From a virus, in the IMG/VR virus record IMGVR_UViG_3300045012_000235, positions 1 to 64,000 of that record: a stretch of 64,000 nt of DNA; one strand, 5' to 3'. The position numbers and the translations under genes are program-made. Positions 2,891 through 37,226 of the stretch are shown one piece after another. The notes beneath the pieces are model-generated. The model was not told the origin of the DNA, did no database searches, and worked only from the letters and a program-made list of their open reading frames with translations. Numbering within the stretch: position 1 is the stretch's first letter; each line of letters opens with the position of its first letter.

Positions 2891-3221
2891 GCAGACCGTG
2901 GTGGGCGAACCGTGCCGGCGGTGCGGCATCCCTTGTTCCAAAAAGACAATTGATGTGCCGTGCTTCGAAGAGGGTGACACCTTCGAGACCTGGAAGGCGA
3001 GGCAGCCGGCGGAACTGTTCAAGGAGCTGTTCATGCCTCCGGTCGAAGAGGCCAACGACATCGACAGCGCGAAGGCGGCGGTCTCTCAGATCTTGCTGAA
3101 CTTACTCGCCAAGCTCGGTCCTCATTCGACGGTGGTGGACGTCGTCGTCAGCAAGTTGTCCGATCTCGTCGTCGCACACATTCAAGAGGCGAAGCGCTTA
3201 TCGGATGTACGGGTAGAGTAG
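2880..3221 (+). CDS. Hypothetical protein with N-terminal Cys cluster
   Basis: 113 aa, coupled to the RHH gene by an 11-base overlap. The N-terminus contains CRRCGIPC and a further Cys at about residue 28, a plausible metal site. The rest is helical, with an amphipathic C-terminal half (around AAVSQILLNLLAKLG and VVVSKLSDLVVAHIQEAKRL). The end overlaps the convergent transglutaminase-like gene by 24 bases. I do not recognise the family. Confidence 0.7.
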   Translation: MKHKQTVVGEPCRRCGIPCSKKTIDVPCFEEGDTFETWKARQPAELFKELFMPPVEEANDIDSAKAAVSQILLNLLAKLGPHSTVVDVVVSKLSDLVVAHIQEAKRLSDVRVE

Positions 3222-3866
3222 ATCGATCGCGCTCACCTGCACGCGAACACCGCTGACGCCGACCTCGCTGCCGCCCGCCATCCCGACGAAGTCCCCCTCG
3301 CCGCGATTCTTCGCTTCCTCGCCGGGCTCGACCCACCACTCGCGCTGGTGATGGGCGACCTTGCCGACCGGGTGCTTCGTCGTACCGTCCATGCGAACCC
3401 AGTCGCTCTGCTCATCCTGGAACGCGAGAAAGACGTGCGTCGGAACCTCGTATGGATGCTTGTGCGAGCTGCCGATGATCATCGCGGGAATGCCGATCGA
3501 CATCATCGCCGCCGCGAGCGTGACCGACGCATCATCGCAGTCGCCACCGACGATGCAGAGGCCCCCGTTGTCGAGACAAAGCGTCTGTTCGGGGTGCGCG
3601 ATGAACTCGCCCATCACCGGGTCAGCCACGTACGGCACCTTCTTTCGGTACGCGTCCAAGACCGCTTGAGCCTTTTGCCGGCGCGATCCGCTGGACACGC
3701 CGACCGCGTCAAGCTTCTGCGTCGTCCACGCACGGAGGCGCGGCGACATCCGCGATTTCCAGGCGCGCTCGGCGACTTCCTTGAGCGAGAGGAGTGACCC
3801 TTCGCGACCGGCCGGATGCGAACGCACGTCCGTCTTCACGCCGGCAACGGGCTTGTCGAAGATCAT
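3198..3866 (-). CDS. Transglutaminase-like cysteine protease-fold protein
   Basis: 222 aa from ATG 3864-3866 (ATGA overlap with the upstream gene). The order Cys-His-Asp of the transglutaminase-like fold is visible: GDCDDASVTLAAAM (Cys), then PTHVFLAF (His), then WVRMDGT (Asp). The N-terminal segment LSLKEVAERAWKSRMSP is also found in the paralogue at 54963-55583. In phages such proteins are thought to act as peptidases or amidases on peptides or peptidoglycan cross-links; here it follows a LysM-like gene, which supports a cell-wall role. It is cytoplasmic or virion-borne, as no signal peptide is present. Catalysis is likely but unproven. Confidence 0.75.
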   Translation of the reverse strand: MIFDKPVAGVKTDVRSHPAGREGSLLSLKEVAERAWKSRMSPRLRAWTTQKLDAVGVSSGSRRQKAQAVLDAYRKKVPYVADPVMGEFIAHPEQTLCLDNGGLCIVGGDCDDASVTLAAAMMSIGIPAMIIGSSHKHPYEVPTHVFLAFQDEQSDWVRMDGTTKHPVGKVAHHQREWWVEPGEEAKNRGEGDFVGMAGGSEVGVSGVRVQVSAIDLLYPYIR

Positions 3867-4924
3867 GTGGCGTACTCCCGGCGCGCAGCGGACGTACGCG
3901 TGGGCTTGCGGGTCGCTGCGTATGCGATTCCGCCCGCGGCCGCCACCCCGAGTACCGTGACCACGGTCCACCCCCAGGGGAATCCGTCATCGTCGCTGGC
4001 TGCGCTCGAGGGCACAATCTGCTTCGAGGCCGGAGGAGGCTTCGGTGTAGGCACCGGGCGCTGCCCCGCGCCGCACGCCGAGGGCGCGCTCCCCGCGATC
4101 TGCGCAAGAGCGACAACCGTGGCGACCTCGTAGGTGCCGGTGCCGACAGGGACCTTCGGGGATTGCGACGCGTTCCAGGCTGTCTTGAAACGGTGGACCG
4201 CGGCATTGACCGGCGTTCCGGGGTGAGTGACCGACGTGCAGTAATTGGGGTCGGCTGAGAGGGCAGCCACAGCGGCTTTTGCAGCGGTTTGCAGGCCGGA
4301 CGACGCGGAGTGCGTCTGGATCGCCAGATGCGCGTTGCCGAGCGCCGTGGAGAGCGCGTTCTGGATGTCGAGGCGTGCGCGGGTAACAGCGGCCCGGTCG
4401 TTTGCAGCGACAGCGGTGGCGAGGTCGCGGTTACGCACCCAAGCCCAGTGCGTTGCGTCTCTCACGAGTTTGGCTTTGGCGGCGTCGGCTCCGCTCACCG
4501 CCGCATCCACCTTCTTGCCCGCGTCGCCCACGGCCTTGATGAACGAGGTGTCGTCGAGCGCCGCGAGCTGGGCGACCGCAGTGACGGCCGGGTCGAGCTC
4601 GGGCGAGTCGCCGAGCGTGCCGCGCGTCACGCCATTGTGATGAGGCAGGATCTTGTAGTACGTCGCCGGCAGCTTCTCGCGCGCGGGGTGAAACCACTCG
4701 TCGGGCAAATTGAGCGTCTCGCCGACGCGTAGCTCGCGAAAGGTAACGAACCCGTTCGGTCGCGTGATCGCCTTTTTGTGCAAATTCACGCGAGGTAGCT
4801 CGCAGGCGCATTTCGGACAGGAAGCATGGGAACCTTGCGCCGCGATGCTCCCTGGCGAGTCGCCGACCTGAACGACGTACGTCCTCACGCCTCCTAGACT
4901 ACGCGCGTACGGTCCCGCTGTCAC
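3863..4924 (-). CDS. LysM-like domain protein with C-terminal membrane helix
   Basis: 353 aa from GTG 4922-4924 (GTGA overlap with the upstream gene); a second GTG 13 codons in is possible but sits only one base after a GGAGG. Residues about 14-75 resemble a LysM domain (TYVVQVGDSPGSIAA ... LRVGETLNLPDEW), carrying an extra Cys pair (CPKC). A long Ala-rich helical region follows, then a Pro-rich segment and one transmembrane helix (WTVVTVLGVAAAGGIAYAA) with a basic tail. It could anchor to peptidoglycan from the membrane or virion. It is translationally coupled to the transglutaminase-like gene. Confidence 0.7.
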   Translation of the reverse strand: MTAGPYARSLGGVRTYVVQVGDSPGSIAAQGSHASCPKCACELPRVNLHKKAITRPNGFVTFRELRVGETLNLPDEWFHPAREKLPATYYKILPHHNGVTRGTLGDSPELDPAVTAVAQLAALDDTSFIKAVGDAGKKVDAAVSGADAAKAKLVRDATHWAWVRNRDLATAVAANDRAAVTRARLDIQNALSTALGNAHLAIQTHSASSGLQTAAKAAVAALSADPNYCTSVTHPGTPVNAAVHRFKTAWNASQSPKVPVGTGTYEVATVVALAQIAGSAPSACGAGQRPVPTPKPPPASKQIVPSSAASDDDGFPWGWTVVTVLGVAAAGGIAYAATRKPTRTSAARREYAT

Positions 4925-7410: not shown

Positions 7411-8088
7411 TTAGAGATCCGGCAGCGGAGGCAGGAGACCCGCCTCCAGGAATGAAAAGTACGATTTGTGGCCGCATATGATGTGGTCGAGCAGACCGAC
7501 GCCGACAACCTCGAACGCGTCCGCAAATGCCTCTGTCGTCTCCTTGTCCGCATCGCTCGGTTCGGCTTTTACACCCGAGGGATGGACATGGAACAAGATG
7601 ACGGCATGCGCGCCGTCGATGAGCGCGGCTTGAAGCGTCGGCACGAGCGGCGCCATCACGGCCGCCGGCTCTCCGCGACCTGTCTCGGCGACGCTCTTCA
7701 TCCGAAGGTGGATGTCGAGCGTAACGACTCCGAAGACCTCGTTGACCTCGTCGCCGATGGCTTCACCGATGAGTTGAAACGCCCGCTTCGGCGTGTCGAG
7801 CGGACCGATTGAATCGGCGAGCGCGTTGCACGCGGCGAACCGCTCTTGGTCCTTCTGCACGGTCAGGAACGGACGGCACTTCGAACCGTTGCCGGCGCCG
7901 AGCACGACGGGGTCCGCACCGGCGTCCGCGAGCGCCACTTCGTGCGCGTCGTCCTTTACGCGAAGGCGGCCGGGCGTGCGGCTGCGCACGCGAAGCACCG
8001 CGCGCTCTGCGAGCGTCCGCGCCTGCGCCGGCTCGTGGCAGCCGCACCCCTCCTGCTGAGTGCCAAATTTAGGATCGTAGACCTTCAC
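7411..8088 (-). CDS. RadC-like JAB/JAMM-domain protein
   Basis: 225 aa from GTG 8086-8088, overlapping the upstream gene by 20 bases; a longer frame would lie entirely antisense. The C-terminal half carries the JAMM signature of the RadC family: a Glu in NEVFGVVTLD, then FHVHPSG, then an Asp at SDADKETTEAF, followed by LLDHIICG. The metal ligands appear complete. The N-terminal half has CGCHEP and a helical region without the usual RadC helix-hairpin-helix. RadC-like proteins are common on mobile elements; their role is unsettled (metal-dependent hydrolase or nuclease regulator). Confidence 0.85.
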   Translation of the reverse strand: MKVYDPKFGTQQEGCGCHEPAQARTLAERAVLRVRSRTPGRLRVKDDAHEVALADAGADPVVLGAGNGSKCRPFLTVQKDQERFAACNALADSIGPLDTPKRAFQLIGEAIGDEVNEVFGVVTLDIHLRMKSVAETGRGEPAAVMAPLVPTLQAALIDGAHAVILFHVHPSGVKAEPSDADKETTEAFADAFEVVGVGLLDHIICGHKSYFSFLEAGLLPPLPDL

Positions 8089-9463: not shown

Positions 9464-9476
9464 TACCTTGAACGGC

Positions 9477-10070
9477 GTGGAGCACGTCGTTCGCAACGGC
9501 CGATCGGTCGCGGGCTTCGGTGTCGGCGCACCCTCGGAGGCCGAAGCCGCCCTTCACTCGATCAAGGTTCGACTGGACCGGCCGCCCTGGCTCCGCGCAA
9601 TCAGCATCACGTCCTCGAAGATCGGCGACGTCATCCTCATCGAGGTCCAGCGACCCGAACACGTACCGATTGCTCAAATGATCGTGGGCGACCGCGTCAA
9701 CATGGTGCCCGTCCACTACGAGGCGGGGAGTAACGCCGGAGTCGGGATCGGCGCGCTCTGGTCACCCGACTGGCGCAACACCTCCACGAAGCTCGCTGCA
9801 ATGGAACGACTAATTGCCGAGGGTCGCGGAGACACACTCGTGGAGGGCGGCGGGTGCACCGAACCGGGTGGGGGGATCGTACCCACGCAGCGCACCGCGC
9901 TTGAGATGGCAAAACTGCTGCGCAAACGCGAACACGGGCTCGGCGACAAAACATCCGAGACCGAGCACCACTGGCCGTGGAAGGACGCCGTCGTCATGAG
10001 CGTCGCGGGCGCGCTAACCGGCTGGGTGCTCGAGGAGATCGCGCGGCGAACGTTCCGGAGGAAGCGATGA
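9477..10070 (+). CDS. R-x-G-R...G-F family protein 1, C-terminal membrane helix
   Basis: 197 aa from GTG 9477, which lies exactly 7 bases after a TACCTT element; a TTG nine bases upstream is an alternative. The N-terminus MEHVVRNGRSVAGFGVG shares the motif R-x-G-R-x-x-x-G-F-x-[VL]-G with the next three genes. The middle domain (IKVRLDRPPWLRAISI ... GDVILIEVQRPEHVPIAQM) looks globular, with alternating strands. The C-terminus has one membrane helix (AVVMSVAGALTGWVLEEI) and the basic tail ARRTFRRKR. Overlaps the next gene by 4 bases. Function unknown; probably membrane or virion-membrane associated. Confidence 0.75.
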   Translation: MEHVVRNGRSVAGFGVGAPSEAEAALHSIKVRLDRPPWLRAISITSSKIGDVILIEVQRPEHVPIAQMIVGDRVNMVPVHYEAGSNAGVGIGALWSPDWRNTSTKLAAMERLIAEGRGDTLVEGGGCTEPGGGIVPTQRTALEMAKLLRKREHGLGDKTSETEHHWPWKDAVVMSVAGALTGWVLEEIARRTFRRKR

Positions 10071-10612
10071 TGATGCGCGGCGGACGACAGGTTGCAGGGT
10101 TCGCGCTCGGTTTTGGTTCACCTAGCGACTGGTACTACACCCGCTTTATCTATGCCGGGGATGTCAAAGAGGCGAAGAACCGCGTTGACGCGAAATACCA
10201 GAGCCTCAACCGCGATGTGCAGGCGTGCGCCAAACTGTCCCCCGGCGACAAAACTGCTTGGACCGACGCTTTCACGGCCTGGCGCAAGCTGTATTGCAGC
10301 AACGACAGCGGAACGTGCACCGAGCCGGATGCCTCGATCTTTGGCGCTGGTGGTGCGATGGACGACGTCGAACGGGCCGAGAAGTCCGCGTTTGCATGGC
10401 AGACCAAAATCAAAGCAACGTGCCAAGTAAGCGGTCCGATGGAGAAACCTGACGCTGCGAAACGCGATGAAGGCGGTCCCAGCCAGTGGTTCGCGGAGCA
10501 CAAGACGGCACTCATCGTGGGCGGAGTCGTCGTCGGAGGGGTCGTCGTGCTGGGGGTACTCGCGCCATACGCCAAAATAGCTGCCGCCGCGTTACCTCGC
10601 AGAACCGGGTGA
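10067..10612 (+). CDS. R-x-G-R...G-F family protein 2, C-terminal membrane helix
   Basis: 181 aa from ATG 10067 with a strong GGAGGAAG ribosome site and an ATGA overlap. N-terminal motif MMMRGGRQVAGFALGFG. The central part is helical with two Cys (KLYCSNDSGTC) and a third (ATCQVSG). A Gly/Val-rich membrane helix (ALIVGGVVVGGVVVLGVLA) is near the end. Belongs to the four-member set at 9.5-11.6 kb. Confidence 0.75.
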   Translation: MMMRGGRQVAGFALGFGSPSDWYYTRFIYAGDVKEAKNRVDAKYQSLNRDVQACAKLSPGDKTAWTDAFTAWRKLYCSNDSGTCTEPDASIFGAGGAMDDVERAEKSAFAWQTKIKATCQVSGPMEKPDAAKRDEGGPSQWFAEHKTALIVGGVVVGGVVVLGVLAPYAKIAAAALPRRTG

Positions 10613-10640
10613 TCGAATGGTTCCGGAAACGAGGTTCCCG

Positions 10641-11252
10641 ATGAAAATAATGCGCGGCGGACGACCGGTTCAAGGATTCGCGCTGGGAGGCAGCTTCTTC
10701 GGAACCAAGATCGACGACCTCGACAGGCTGATCAAGAACAAGGATGTCGAGATGTCGGCGATGGGCGTCGAAGTCGCCAAGTCCTCCGACTCGAGCATCC
10801 AGCAGGATTGGACGGCGCTCAACCAGGCGTACCAGGCCGCGCGCGCTGTGGGGCTCAAGATGATCACGGACAGCCGAGGTTCTTCCGTGCCCGAGATCTT
10901 GCAACCGGTGGATCCTGACGTGCCCCTCAAGGCGATCGTCGCAGTGCTGCAACCGAGTGAGCACCAAGTCACTCGAGGGAGCAAGCAGGACATCGCCAAC
11001 CGACTCATGGCGTCGGGCTGGAAGCCATCATACCAGTTGGACAACAGGCCAAAAGGATCGGCAGCACCCTTACCGCCGCCCCCATCCACAGATCCACCAA
11101 CACCGGCTGCAGCGTCTTCGTCCGCTCCCGCAGCACCGCCCGCAACGCCGCCCAACGCGGATTCTCCCTGGCTCGTGCCCGCGATCGTCGCCGGAGGCGT
11201 TGTCCTTCTCGGCGGCGTTCTCGTGGTGGTCGCCCGTCAAAGAGCTGCGTAG
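10641..11252 (+). CDS. R-x-G-R...G-F family protein 3, Pro linker and membrane helix
   Basis: 203 aa from ATG 10641, which has GAGG six bases upstream. N-terminal motif MKIMRGGRPVQGFALGG. A helical domain with 'DDLDRLIKNKDVEMSAMG' follows. The segment around VTRGSKQDIANRLMASGW resembles peptidoglycan-binding or SAP-like short motifs. A Pro/Ala/Ser linker of about 45 residues leads to one membrane helix (LVPAIVAGGVVLLGGVLVVVA). Likely membrane-anchored with the N-terminal part exposed on one side. Confidence 0.75.
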   Translation: MKIMRGGRPVQGFALGGSFFGTKIDDLDRLIKNKDVEMSAMGVEVAKSSDSSIQQDWTALNQAYQAARAVGLKMITDSRGSSVPEILQPVDPDVPLKAIVAVLQPSEHQVTRGSKQDIANRLMASGWKPSYQLDNRPKGSAAPLPPPPSTDPPTPAAASSSAPAAPPATPPNADSPWLVPAIVAGGVVLLGGVLVVVARQRAA

Positions 11253-11286
11253 ACGGACCGCCTGAAGCGTCGTACGCTCGAACGCA
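11249..11286 (+). promoter_or_regulatory. Leaderless promoter of family protein 4
   Basis: GTAGAC at 11249-11254, an 18-base spacer, TACGCT at 11273-11278 and 7 bases to the ATG at 11286. The geometry equals that at 21293, 22563 and 32182. The -35 lies across the end of the upstream coding sequence. Confidence 0.5.
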
Positions 11287-11576
11287 TGGAACATCTTCGG
11301 TTCGGCGGTCGACCCGCCCCTGGATTCGGCGTGGGCGCAGGCTCTTTCGTCAAATCGAGCACGGAGCATGTCTTCACCAAGCCCGGGGGCACGTTGGGCG
11401 CCTTCCTCGGCGGCGCTGCGATGAGCGCCATCGCGGGCGTCGCCGCCGTCACCTTCTTCGGCGAGGGGACCAACATCGGCGGCATCGGCGCCGTTGCCTC
11501 GCGCCTGCAACGCAACTGGAAAGTGCTCGCAGCCACCGCGGTCGCGGGCGGCGTCGTCGGCGCCATCGCGAAGTAG
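11286..11576 (+). CDS. R-x-G-R...G-F family protein 4, small membrane protein
   Basis: 96 aa with the N-terminal motif MEHLRFGGRPAPGFGVGAG. Gly/Ala-rich hydrophobic segments follow at about residues 35-60 and 76-95 (LAATAVAGGVVGAIA), probably two membrane helices. It has its own leaderless-type promoter. It ends directly against the convergent gene at 11577. Confidence 0.75.
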   Translation: MEHLRFGGRPAPGFGVGAGSFVKSSTEHVFTKPGGTLGAFLGGAAMSAIAGVAAVTFFGEGTNIGGIGAVASRLQRNWKVLAATAVAGGVVGAIAK

Positions 11577-13258: not shown

Positions 13259-15115
13259 ATGAGTCTCATCATCGGTCGAGGACGGTACGCACGTGAGGCG
13301 TATCCCACTGCACCCGGAGCCGGAGGTGGCAGCGGAAGTCTCACGGGACCGACCGGTCCGAGCGGGGGTCCGGTCGGACCGACAGGTGCCCCTGGACCGA
13401 CAGGTCCGAGCGGAGCAACCGGCGCCACAGGAGTGGGCGCGAGCGGACCGACGGGGGCAGCGTCCACCGTCACCGGACCCACGGGTGCAACCGGTTCAGC
13501 GTCCACGGGCAGTACGGGACCGACGGGCGCTCCATCCGTCGTCACGGGACCCACGGGGACCTCTGGACCGACAGGCAACACGGGACCCCAAGGCACCGCA
13601 GCAAACACCGGCGCTACAGGATCAACGGGGAGTGCGGGACCAACGGGCAGCACAGGACCTCAAGGCACCGCAGCAAACACCGGCGCCACCGGACCGACGG
13701 GCGCAACGGGCGCCGGAGCGACTGGGCCAACAGGGGCAGCCTCAACGGTAACAGGCCCCACGGGGGCTTCGGGACCCACCGGAGCCGCGTCCACAGTCAC
13801 TGGCCCGACGGGAGAGACCGGGGCAGGTGTCACGGGGCCTACTGGAGCAACGGGTCACACCGGGAGCACAGGATCGACTGGGGCAGTAGGAACAGGTCCG
13901 ACAGGCCCCACGGGATCGGCGTCGACCGGAAGCACGGGGCCGACCGGTGCGGCATCGGCGGTCACCGGACCAACCGGTGCGGATGCAACGGGACCCACCG
14001 GCCCAACTGGAGCCGCATCAACAGTCACCGGACCAACCGGTGCGGGTGCGACAGGACCCACGGGTCCGACCGGCGCAACCGGGCACACGGGAGGGGCGGG
14101 GTCGACGGGACCCACCGGCGCGGCTTCCGTCGTGACCGGCCCCACCGGCGCCGCGGGATCAACGGGTCTGACCGGAGCCACCGGATCTACCGGAGCAAGC
14201 TCGGGGCTCGCAGAACATTCGCTCTACGTCACCTCCTTCCGCACCTTCACCGTGCCTTTCGGCGTCACCACCATGCGCGCCACGCTCGCGGGCGGTGGAG
14301 GTGGTGGAGGCGGCGGGGCCACCGGGTACACCACGGCAAGCGGGCTCTCTGGGCTGTTTAGTAACGGCGGTGGCGGCGGAGGCGGATCCACGCCCGTCAC
14401 TGTCATCCTTACAGGTCTATCCAGTGGAGATACTCTCGATCTCCTCCCAGGTGCCGGCGGTGCAGGGGCTGCGGCTGGAGGTAACCTGCCTGGATCACCG
14501 GGCGGAATAACCACAATTGGTGATTCAACATCCTCTGTCACATATGCCCAAGCTCCCGGAGGTAGCGGTGGCGGGAGTTCCACTGTATTTGGGCAAGTGG
14601 CGGGCGGCGGCGCTCCAACAACCGCCGCCGGCGGGAACAACATTCCAAACGTTCTCGCCCCTCAATCGGTCCTCTCCAGTGTGCCAGGTCAGGGCGGATG
14701 CGGTGGAGGCAACTACACGTCCGTGACGTACGCAGGAGTTACACCTTCACTGGTCAATGTCACCGCCCCATCCAGCCCAGGAAACGACAACACGGTAGGT
14801 CTCTTTCCTGGAGGACCACTGGGTAGTGCGGGACTCCCTTCAACGTTTGCCGCTGGCAACGGTGGTGGCGGCGGTGGTGGTGGTCCCGGAATCGTCTTTA
14901 CGAACCAAAGCGCCGGTGCGGGCGGGCAAGGCGGCAACGGGGCCTCCGGTTCCACCGCAGCCACGGCGGGCTCCCCCGGTGGAGCTGCCCCTGCCAATTC
15001 CGGCGCTGGAGGCGGCGGAGGCGGGGGCGGCGGGTGCGCAAACACGGCTCCAGCAGCCGGCGGCGCAGGCGGCAACGGCGGCAGCGGATTCATTCTGCTC
15101 GAGTGGCTCGCGTAA
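13259..15115 (+). CDS. Collagen-shaft fibre protein 1 with Gly-rich head
   Basis: 618 aa, GGAG upstream. Three parts are visible. Residues 1-25 form the shared anchor [20 protein letters not shown]. Residues about 26-318 are collagen-like G-x-y repeats, mostly GPT/GAT/GST, interrupted at intervals by AASTVT-type breaks. Residues about 320-618 are a Gly/Ser/Thr-rich head with poly-Gly runs and strands such as [20 protein letters not shown], similar to Gly-rich phage fibre tips. The protein should trimerise through the shaft. Threonines in GPT are potential O-glycosylation sites. Probable role: virion fibre or adhesin. Confidence 0.8.
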
Positions 15116-20103: not shown

Positions 20104-21153
20104 ATGTCCTTCGTCATCGGTCGCGGACGTTACAGAGGAGAGGCGTACCCCACGGCGCCGGGCATCGGTGGCGGTGGCAGCGGTACGGGAGCGACCGGAC
20201 CGAGAGGTCAAACGGGTCCAAGCGGTGCAACGGGACCCGCGGGCAGCGCATCGCTCACCGGCGCCACGGGCGCGATCGGACCGACCGGATCAACTGGAGG
20301 AACTGGCGCAACCGGACCTACGGGCGCTGCATCCACGGTCACGGGACCGACGGGCGCGAGCGGGCCGACGGGTACGACAGGCCCCGCGGGCGCTGCATCC
20401 AACACAGGATCGACCGGCGCCACGGGACCTACAGGCGCGGTAGGGACGGGACCGACAGGTTCCACTGGCGCCGCATCGACGATCACAGGATCGACGGGCC
20501 CGACCGGCGCAGGCACCACAGGCCCCACCGGAGCCGCATCCGTCGTCACCGGACCGACCGGGCCGACTGGAACAACAGGGCCGTCCTCGACTGTCACCGG
20601 GCCCACAGGACCCTCGGGTCCGACGGGGGCGGCATCCACGGTCACGGGACCCACGGGCAACACAGGCAACACAGGACCCACCGGTGCAGCGTCCACTGTC
20701 ACCGGCCCCACGGGTCCGACTGGAGCCGCGTCAACTGTTACAGGACCGACAGGCGCAACGGGACCCACCGGCGCAACCGGAGCGACGGGTCCAGCCGCCA
20801 CGGTCACACAGGCGTACGTGCTCGAGTCCGCAAGCCCCTACACCGCTCTGGCAACCGATCAGCTGATTCTCGTCGACAACGCGCTCGGGAGCACCGTCGT
20901 CACCGTCAACATGCCAGCCGCGCCAGTCGCCGGGCAACGGCACACCGTCAAGTGGTGGAAATCGAATGCGACGCCAGCCGGTCCGCCCATCATCAGCGGC
21001 AACGGCAACAACATCGAATCCTGGACGGCGGCTACTGGAAGTAGCGGTACTGCGGCCACCACCACCATCAATCAAATCGGCGGAGAAGGAACATGGGAAT
21101 GGGCACCGACCGTGAGCGGAACCGCTGTCAATCGATGGGTTTTGGTGGCGTGA
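20104..21153 (+). CDS. Collagen-shaft fibre protein 2
   Basis: 349 aa. Shared anchor [20 protein letters not shown] and [13 protein letters not shown], then G-x-y repeats to about residue 235. The ~115-residue head begins [17 protein letters not shown] and contains [20 protein letters not shown] and [19 protein letters not shown], a compact beta-sandwich-like fold. It overlaps the small lipoprotein-like frame by one base. No dispersed motif precedes it; it follows the YadA-like gene in an operon. Confidence 0.8.
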
Positions 21154-26979: not shown

Positions 26980-27675
26980 ATGAGCTTTGTCATCGGCCGC
27001 GGACGGTATGCGCGAGAGACGTACCCAACGGCTCCGCTCCCGGGTCCTACCGGAGCGTCTGGTTCACACGGTGGGCCAACAGGTCCTGCAGGCAACACGG
27101 GAACAACTGGCCCAACGGGCGCGACTGGCGCGGGACCGACGGGAAGCACCGGCCCGACCGGAACAGCGTCCTTCGTCACGGGTCCGACCGGCCCCACCGG
27201 CACCCCTGGGATGGCTGGACCAACCGGGGGAGGACCGACAGGGCCTACAGGGGCCGCATCGACCGTCACCGGGCCGACAGGGAGCACCGGGGCGACTGGA
27301 AGCACCGGTCCGACCGGCGCAACGGGTGCGACCGGCGCCATCGGCCCCACCGTTACCAACGCCATCGCCGGCAGCACCACCACGCTCGGCGCTGCACGAT
27401 GGAACGTCGTCATCGTCGCCGTCCCGGGCGCTCAAGCCACCGTGAACATGCCGTCGGGCGCGGGGGTACAGGTGGGGGACCAAGTGACCGTCAGCCTCCT
27501 CGGACCCAGCACGTCGAACCCCGTCCTCGTCAACGCCACGGGCGGGTTTACGATCGAAGAGCCTGGAAATCCTGGAAACTTCACGGCGGCCAACGGGCAG
27601 GTCGGTCTGCCAGGGCAAGCGCAGACGGTCACATGGATGAACATCGGCGGAAGTGTGTGGAAGGAGATCGTTTGA
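26980..27675 (+). CDS. Collagen-shaft fibre protein 3
   Basis: 231 aa. Anchor [20 protein letters not shown], then a short shaft of G-x-y repeats to about residue 125, then a ~105-residue head ([19 protein letters not shown] ... [18 protein letters not shown]). The head is homologous to the C-terminus of the 18120-18815 protein, but here on a collagen shaft with the anchor peptide. It shares one base with the lipoprotein gene that follows. Preceded by motif copy 3. Confidence 0.8.
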
Positions 27676-29534: not shown

Positions 29535-29548
29535 TACCGTAACACTCG
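29535..29548 (+). promoter_or_regulatory. Leaderless-type -10 element
   Basis: TGATACCGT with TACCGT at 29535-29540, then 7 bases, then GTG at 29548. No -35 resembling TTGAC is present; motif copy 4 lies upstream and may bind an activator. Confidence 0.5.
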
Positions 29549-30705
29549 TGTCCTTCATCATCGGTCGCGGACGGTACAGAAGTGAAGCGTACCCCACCGC
29601 GCCTGGAATAGGCGGTGGAGGCAGCGGCACGGGGGCGACCGGCCCCACCGGGCCGTTCGGCGGTCCGCCGGGACCGACGGGTCCAACCGGCTCGACTGGG
29701 TCGAAGGGTGCGACCGGAACCACCGGGGCCACCGGGGCGGCGTCGACGACGACCGGCCCCACTGGGGTGACCGGGGCCGCCTCGCTCGTTACCGGTCCAA
29801 CTGGCGCGACCGGCGCGCCGTCTGCGGTCACGGGGCCGACGGGTGCGGGCGGGACCGGCAACACGGGGCCCACCGGTGCCGCCTCGACGGTGACCGGACC
29901 CACCGGGCCGACCGGTTCAATCGGCGTGACCGGTCCTGCGGGCGGCGCGTCGAACACCGGTTCCACCGGCGCGACGGGGCCGACGGGAGCGACCGGCGCC
30001 GGAGCGACGGGACCCACGGGTGCCGCGTCGACCGTTACCGGCCCTACGGGCGCGACGGGTGCGACTGGAGCCGCGTCTACGGTGACCGGACCGACGGGCG
30101 CAACGGGTAGCACGGGACCGACGGGAGCCGCGTCGGTTGTGACGGGACCCACCGGACCAACCGGGTCGACGGGTGCTGCATCGACCGTCACGGGACCCAC
30201 GGGCCCAACGGGATTCACCGGGCCGACCGGGGCATCATCCACCGTCACGGGGCCCACGGGCCCCACGGGAGCGACCGGCGCCTCGTCCACGGTGACCGGT
30301 CCGACGGGCCCTCTCGGGACAGGACCGACGGGTGCGGCGTCGACGGTGACCGGTCCCACGGGAACGACTGGGCCGACGGGAGCAGGCAGTGCCGGACCGA
30401 CGGGTCCGACGGGCCCCGCGGGAGGGACTGTTTTGGCGCGCGGCACCAACGTTTCTCTCCCGCCCGGGGATCTTATCGTAGGACCGTTCACTGTAACAGC
30501 AGGTCAGGTTCTTGACGCGGCCGTCTTCGTTCGTGATTTGACGTCTACCCAAACCGCATCTTGGGCGCCCGAAGCTTCGGGAGCCAGTCAAGTCGAATGG
30601 AAATGGATCAACAACAGCGATCCAGCTAATTCACGATCGTTTGATATTTTCAACTCCACCGGGGGTACTACTTACCATATCGATTACGTCATAATTGTTT
30701 GGTGA
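29548..30705 (+). CDS. Collagen-shaft fibre protein 4
   Basis: 385 aa from GTG 29548. Anchor [20 protein letters not shown], then G-x-y repeats with frequent AASTVT-type interruptions to about residue 295. A ~90-residue head begins [20 protein letters not shown] and ends with [17 protein letters not shown]. The first 82 bases after the start base are identical to those of the gene at 35844. Followed after 12 bases by the DUF1906 lysin gene. Confidence 0.8.
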
Positions 30706-33636: not shown

Positions 33637-33692
33637 ATCCGATCCGGCTGTTCGTGTGGCTCTTCGTGGCCGTCATGGAGCACGGACGATGA
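33633..33692 (+). CDS. Very small membrane peptide, 19 aa
   Basis: From GTG 33633: MNPIRLFVWLFVAVMEHGR, one short hydrophobic helix. GGAG lies 9 bases upstream. It links the 33-aa frame and the phosphatase gene by 4-base overlaps on both sides. May only serve translational coupling. Confidence 0.35.
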   Translation: MNPIRLFVWLFVAVMEHGR

Positions 33693-34096
33693 GCGACTAC
33701 GCGTACCTCCTTCGCGGTGGCCGACTCGCGCAAGGGAGCGCACCGTCACCCGATGCGCGCCTTCCATTCGACGTCATCGTGCTCGCAGCGCAGGAGTACC
33801 AGCCCAACCTGCCTGGCTACATCGTGCTGCACGTGCCGCTCGACGACGGACCGCCTCCCGACAAGGTAACGCGCTTTCGCATCCGGAACGCCGCCCAGAA
33901 GGTGGCGGACCACGTTCGACTCCAGAACCGAGTTCTCGTCACCTGCTGGCACGGCCGCAACCGTTCCGGCGTCATCGCGGGCCTGGCGCTCGTCAAGCTA
34001 GGAATACCGAGAGAACTCGCGGTGAGCCGCATCCAGCGGCTCAGAAACGGCCTGAGCAACCCCTACTTTTGCGCGATGGTTCAAGGTACGCTCTAG
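33689..34096 (+). CDS. Dual-specificity/tyrosine phosphatase-like protein
   Basis: 135 aa from ATG 33689. VTCWHGRNRSGVIAGLAL is the CX5R(S) active-site loop of Cys-based phosphatases; YIVLHVPLDDGPPPD supplies the general-acid Asp region. The N-terminus YAYLLRGGRLAQGSAPSP partly matches the R-G-G-R motif of the family at 9.5-11.6 kb; in true phosphatases this part also forms the first strands (LYLGRL-like), so the similarity may be coincidental. Possible roles: dephosphorylating host proteins, RNA 5' ends or glycans. Confidence 0.75.
   Translation: MSDYAYLLRGGRLAQGSAPSPDARLPFDVIVLAAQEYQPNLPGYIVLHVPLDDGPPPDKVTRFRIRNAAQKVADHVRLQNRVLVTCWHGRNRSGVIAGLALVKLGIPRELAVSRIQRLRNGLSNPYFCAMVQGTL

Positions 34097-35738: not shown

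Positions 35739-37226
<1,488 letters not shown>

Follow-up and report, generated by a model that had tools for sequence, protein, structure and literature searches.

A short peptide shared by unrelated proteins of an undescribed soil-virus lineage, and its possible role in virion incorporation

The internal proteins of phage T4 carry a capsid targeting sequence (CTS), a short and usually N-terminal peptide that stands on unrelated mature parts, doubles as targeting signal and site of cleavage, and is thought to let the phage family add varied proteins to the head (PMC9026906). Encapsulin targeting peptides are short, glycine-rich and hydrophobic, bind the inner face of the shell and are portable (PMC7925596). 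In PR772 and PRD1, P16 and P30 have been described as vertex or membrane linkers and P3 as having plastic N-termini; P16 of PR772 is a small membrane-anchored protein joining the capsid to the internal membrane, and the capsid N-terminus touches the membrane or its neighbours (PMC6750898).

The literature on a tag such as the one reported below yielded analogous systems only. The T4 CTS is, by analogy, the closest precedent for its logic, as here too a short conserved peptide is found on otherwise different proteins. The likeness drawn here is one of logic, and cleavage of the present tag is only a candidate. Unlike the CTS, the tag is not strictly N-terminal, given its internal copies in one core family (g178), and it is carried by membrane-anchored proteins in a lineage with no detectable terminase or portal. 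With the encapsulin peptides it shares a short, glycine-rich, hydrophobic and portable character, but those are C-terminal and belong to an HK97-fold shell, whereas the tag is N-terminal or internal. In contrast to PR772 and PRD1 as described, one tag is common to many proteins. The encapsulin peptides and P16/P30 of PR772 are analogies and not homologues.

The window analysed here is a stretch of 64,000 bases, namely bases 1-64000, or about half, of the virus record G000, which is 124,600 bases (124.6 kb) long. A 127-base direct repeat stands at the start (position 1) and at the end (position 124600) of this record, for which reason its map is probably circular; end repeats of 87-127 bases also occur in three of the seven relatives whose ends were compared. 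Such repeats are a pattern of assemblies from genomes that are circular or circularly permuted. A hexamer model of our own making served for gene calling, and gene starts are approximate. The replication genes resemble those of bacterial dsDNA phages (primase/helicase, a Sak4-like protein, helicases and exonucleases). PRD1-like tailless viruses with an internal membrane (Varidnaviria) are marked by a jelly-roll capsid protein and an FtsK/HerA-type packaging ATPase; a HerA-type ATPase, whose part here may be a different one, is present in G000 and about half of its relatives. The large terminase subunit (PF03237) and portal (PF04860), marks of tailed phages (Caudoviricetes), were absent from ten genomes of the group in a search for these two families, which divergent ones could escape. 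The virion-module proteins and tag carriers that were tried had no match in Pfam, PHROGs or NCBIfam, no relatives were found among 50,697 phage records, and a search for the host by way of proviruses in 84,980 prokaryotic genomes returned none. For comparison, ten relative contigs, whole or nearly whole, were chosen from 27 IMG/VR loci, which with G000 makes 11 genomes; 15 protein clusters are common to all of them. We conclude that the related contigs are an undescribed lineage of soil viruses with genomes of about 110-125 kb, roughly eight times the size of a PRD1-type genome. The lineage is known here from sequences alone, and we infer for it a virion module, a capsid and an internal membrane.

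Four neighbouring genes of the window carry the tag.

9468-10070, + strand: tag carrier g15, starting at TTG 9468 or GTG 9477, with a weak C-terminal helix and a basic tail (RRTFRRKR)
9483-9527, + strand: tag copy HVVRNGRSVAGFGVG in g15, 39.8 bits
10067-10612, + strand: tag carrier g16, with one C-terminal helix
10067-10111, + strand: tag copy MMMRGGRQVAGFALG in g16, 40.7 bits
10641-11252, + strand: tag carrier g17, with a proline-rich linker and a C-terminal helix; homologues in G001, G004 and G018
10644-10688, + strand: tag copy KIMRGGRPVQGFALG in g17, 42.4 bits
11286-11576, + strand: tag carrier g18, a small hydrophobic protein; tag-bearing homologues in G004 and G020
11292-11336, + strand: tag copy HLRFGGRPAPGFGVG in g18, 39.0 bits

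All four are open frames with coding statistics on the + strand. Homologues of g15 occur in eight of the 11 genomes, and g16, with its own sequence as query, had no close relatives. The initial annotation described alike N-termini followed by unrelated domains and took this to suggest a sorting or processing tag. The remainders are indeed unalignable, as pairwise blastp of the four proteins without the tag gave no alignment better than E 0.3. Its further statement that at least three of them end in one membrane helix, the fourth being hydrophobic, held in part: by hydropathy g16 and g17 have a clear single C-terminal helix each, but the weak helix of g15 falls under the threshold used, and the hydrophobic g18 has one segment by threshold with a second, weaker one by eye.

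The window's four copies read E-[ST]-[IV]-S-x-G-G-R-x-V-x-G-F-[GA]-[LV]-G (16 residues), and the lineage consensus is E-[ST]-[IV]-[S]-x-[GN]-G-R-x-V-x-G-F-[GA]-[LV]-G, with the residues beyond the tag free. A hydrophobic/polar stretch thus leads over a GG or NG turn into R-x-V-x-G-F-[GA]-[LV]-G, within about 16 residues. The likeness of the four N-termini proved real and commoner than had been claimed: a 15-column profile built from these four copies only gave 34 matches of at least 14 bits in ten other genomes, none of which lacked a match, where shuffled proteomes gave 0.5, and a 16-copy profile gave 42 against 0.4 (shuffled) over the 11 genomes. Extending the motif search to the whole genome and its relatives, as had been proposed, also added two carriers in G000 outside the window, while a partial match (LLRGGRLAQG) that had been pointed out in a phosphatase reached a best tag score of 5.3 bits, in the noise range.

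G000 116030-116341, - strand: further carrier
G000 114876-116027, - strand: further carrier, with its tag copy at residue 152
33689-34096, + strand: phosphatase-like protein (CWHGRNRSG), not a tag carrier

Among 2.9 million viral contigs, a back-translated DNA pattern had no more than 19 matching stretches; 11 of these are carriers of this lineage, several being one gene in near-identical contigs, and the eight outside it look like chance. As judged by these matches, the tag is limited to this virus lineage among the 2.9 million viral contigs searched.

Carriers were scored by a lineage-seeded position matrix, the four-copy profile being an independent test. A cut-off of 11 bits, with five doubtful matches taken out by hand, left 44 carriers, which group into 19 clusters in the 11 genomes. 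On alignment evidence, the tag is carried by at least 19 unrelated (not alignable) protein families, so that the suggested sorting or processing tag is borne out as one module on 19 families, all near the capsid module. Neither of the refuting conditions named in the initial annotation applies, since homologues keep the tag residues and full-length paralogy does not hold for the carriers. None of the 44 carriers is more than 25 kb away from the capsid candidate, a range into which 47% of all genes fall. A simple hydropathy rule was the sole predictor of membrane helices; a C-terminal one is present in 29 of the 44 carriers and in 103 of the 1482 other proteins (7%; Fisher 6e-22, a p-value that overstates independence, related carriers having been counted one by one), and in carriers it is usually followed by a short basic tail. 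In the relatives, homologues of the window's 3.2-9.1 kb continue into homologues of 117.5-124.4 kb, and this gene order implies that the four motif genes (9.5-11.6 kb) come to adjoin the capsid module in the closed circle.

Three other genes of the virion module and its surroundings are of concern here.

7411-8088, - strand: RadC-like JAB-domain protein g10, a candidate peptidase (PF04002, E 7e-24; 11 of 11 genomes)
3198-3866, - strand: transglutaminase-like protein g5, a candidate peptidase or cross-linker (PF01841, E 2.4e-6; 11 of 11 genomes)
3863-4789, - strand: core virion-module membrane protein with a C-terminal helix and basic tail; its N-terminus is LysM-like in relatives by eye

HxHP...SxxD is retained in most homologues of g10 and Cys/His/Asp in g5, and the tag was looked for in the core membrane protein at 3863-4789 and not found. 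By eye, the lysozyme-like g177 and the LysM-like g6 have a peptidoglycan-active look. In one relative the transglutaminase-like core protein (G012:C1 14851-16503) has a long insertion at the active-site Cys that reads intein-like. A Subtilase-family peptidase (PF00082, E 3.5e-8) is encoded outside the window (G000 100280-101515, + strand); it is missing from the list of widely shared clusters.

A second N-terminal sequence, MS[FLR][IV]IG[RK]GRYAxE[TA]YP, is common to five collagen-like proteins of the window and to ten further proteins from six relatives. Some of these lack collagen repeats, and the sequence is probably a separate tag for fibre-like proteins.

13259-15115, 20104-21153, 26980-27675, 29548-30705 and 35844-37226, all + strand: collagen-like proteins with the second shared N-terminus

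That the tag is N-terminal, as originally annotated, is usually the case, but one core family has it between two domains.

G000 117525-118358: core family g178, alignment of 22 sequences

Its layout runs from an N-terminal part (TDVPVQGPTDEG...) through the tag, present in most members (for example GELISYGGHGALGFALG and GEHVSFGGRGALGFALN), to an ordered domain, which precedes a membrane helix and a basic tail, and many of these tag copies have no start codon immediately ahead. In G000's own g178 the tag is decayed. The AF2 model of one member has a domain at residues 83-183 with pLDDT about 90 and a tag region with pLDDT 34-40, which makes a flexible linker between domains the probable state of the latter as modelled. 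Another member, of 762 aa, has three tag copies by score. Because of these internal copies and that of the carrier at 114876-116027 of G000, we regard the tag as a portable linear motif for which a free N-terminus is not needed. A fold search with the g178 model gave no significant match, and nothing in BFVD; its top PDB match and one weak sequence match both belong to the Sen1395/TtsA muramidase group, a resemblance that hints at peptidoglycan binding and no more.

The most conserved protein of the module is labelled the capsid candidate on account of this conservation and its position.

G000 120050-121333: capsid candidate, 427 aa

Its homologues are found at 27 loci in IMG/VR (64-85% identity), and none in the phage records or the 84,980 prokaryotic genomes. 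Sequence searches for a jelly-roll capsid protein gave no match, and the AF2 model of the candidate has a pLDDT of 32, too low to be used for the fold. The first 40 residues are variable except for a block with R23, F26, G27 and G29; mean entropy falls from 1.71 bits ahead of residues 23-29 to 0.63 bits within them and is 1.50 bits behind them. This block reads R-V-P-F-G-L-G (core R-x-x-F-G-x-G), often after [KR]-[FYW]-G-[GQD], and can be aligned with the tag only with an insertion. Of 1701 proteins, seven contain [RK]xx[PQGA]F[GA][LVIY]G, namely five capsid candidates and two tag carriers. A capsid-type tail (RFGGESREKVQRV.F) also stands on a small, otherwise different protein in two relatives, one of which has a capsid-like stretch (PPTSPDVYTQNDIANG) as well.

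G001:C1 38338-38979: small capsid-tail protein with a coiled-coil-like remainder and the capsid-like stretch
G004:C1 106140-106562: small capsid-tail protein with a coiled-coil-like remainder

These patterns are suggestive of a single docking code that exists in two forms, the capsid tail and the tag. The core protein adjoining the capsid candidate (G000 121411-124422, - strand, outside the window) contains a long Lys/Arg-rich repeat region (KRRPRRVREA...) and is possibly a DNA-condensing virion protein; its relatives in other contigs are much shorter.

Our preferred reading, to which we assign a probability of about 0.5, is that the tag would be a modular peptide for virion incorporation by capsid docking, comparable in its working to the T4 CTS. 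It is favoured by the four-copy profile test, the 19 clusters, the excess of helices, the placement near the capsid candidate and the restriction to one lineage, by the internal copies in a low-confidence linker along with the conserved R..FG.G in the capsid candidate's tail, and by the reuse of the capsid-type tail on a small, otherwise different protein. Points that weigh on the other side are the decay of the tag in G000's own g178 and the insertion required to align the capsid tail with the tag. The tag, possibly folded as a beta-hairpin around the GG/NG turn, would dock on the inside of the capsid shell at a site repeated over its lattice, which may be the groove that the capsid protein's tail itself occupies. 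An internal membrane would hold the C-terminal helix, leaving the basic tail to face the DNA, and the tagged proteins would tie the shell to the membrane or travel as entry proteins; the peptidoglycan-active look of g177 and g6 and the weak muramidase-group resemblance of g178 would agree with a role in entry. A virus peptidase, with g10 and g5 as candidates, may remove the tag after targeting, which is conceivable since the T4 CTS combines both functions.

It can also be argued, though we consider it rather unlikely, that the tag would be mainly a site cleaved in maturation. The peptidase, be it g10, g5 or another one of the virus, would then cut inside or downstream of GF[GA][LV]G, and would do so in the N-terminal leaders, in the linker of g178 and in the capsid tail alike. 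Such a site would account for much of the same pattern: two peptidase-like genes belong to the core set, the residues past the tag are free, and copies occur at N-termini, in a flexible interdomain linker and in the capsid tail, with three in the 762-aa protein. On the other side, the conserved block, at about 16 residues, exceeds most protease sites in length, and its turn and its basic residue would lie a long way upstream of where a cut could fall. RadC-type proteins, moreover, are not known as virion peptidases. An address to the host membrane or an assembly site, read by a host or virus factor and not directed to the capsid, would suit the membrane helices of most carriers; it appears improbable in view of the related tails on the capsid candidate and on a small protein without an obvious helix, the internal copies, and the lack of a carrier-like tag in other viruses among the 2.9 million viral contigs.

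The tandem arrangement of the four carriers, in a region whose gene content differs between genomes, might point to recent paralogues or a duplicated gene start with a motif devoid of function. This is very improbable: the shared tag residues of g15-g18 are encoded by different synonymous codons, so that what they share is protein sequence and no recent duplication of DNA lies behind it, and the motif is kept across diverged contigs and families while the flanks change. Duplication at the DNA level was rejected on the codon differences, and simple paralogy of the carriers on the unalignable tag-stripped proteins. A prepilin-type (class III) signal peptide cut before F, with which the initial annotation had compared the basic residues and the G-F step, is hardly credible and was rejected, given that polar residues and no hydrophobic segment follow the tag, that the helix is C-terminal and that internal copies exist.

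If the tag is the docking code of our preferred reading, it would provide a sequence rule for predicting virion proteins of unknown function across a whole undescribed lineage and might serve as a loading peptide where proteins are to be packaged. It would also offer a case on which to test how shell and membrane are joined in large virions, and the virion proteome would evolve via a short shared peptide and not via domain homology. More tentatively, and with some doubt on our part, a large (about 110-125 kb) lineage of bacterial viruses, possibly tailless and membrane-containing, may build its particle by a portable address code, in which one tag for inner membrane proteins is echoed in the capsid tail, a second N-terminal tag serves fibre-like proteins, and new proteins would join the virion by gaining a tag.
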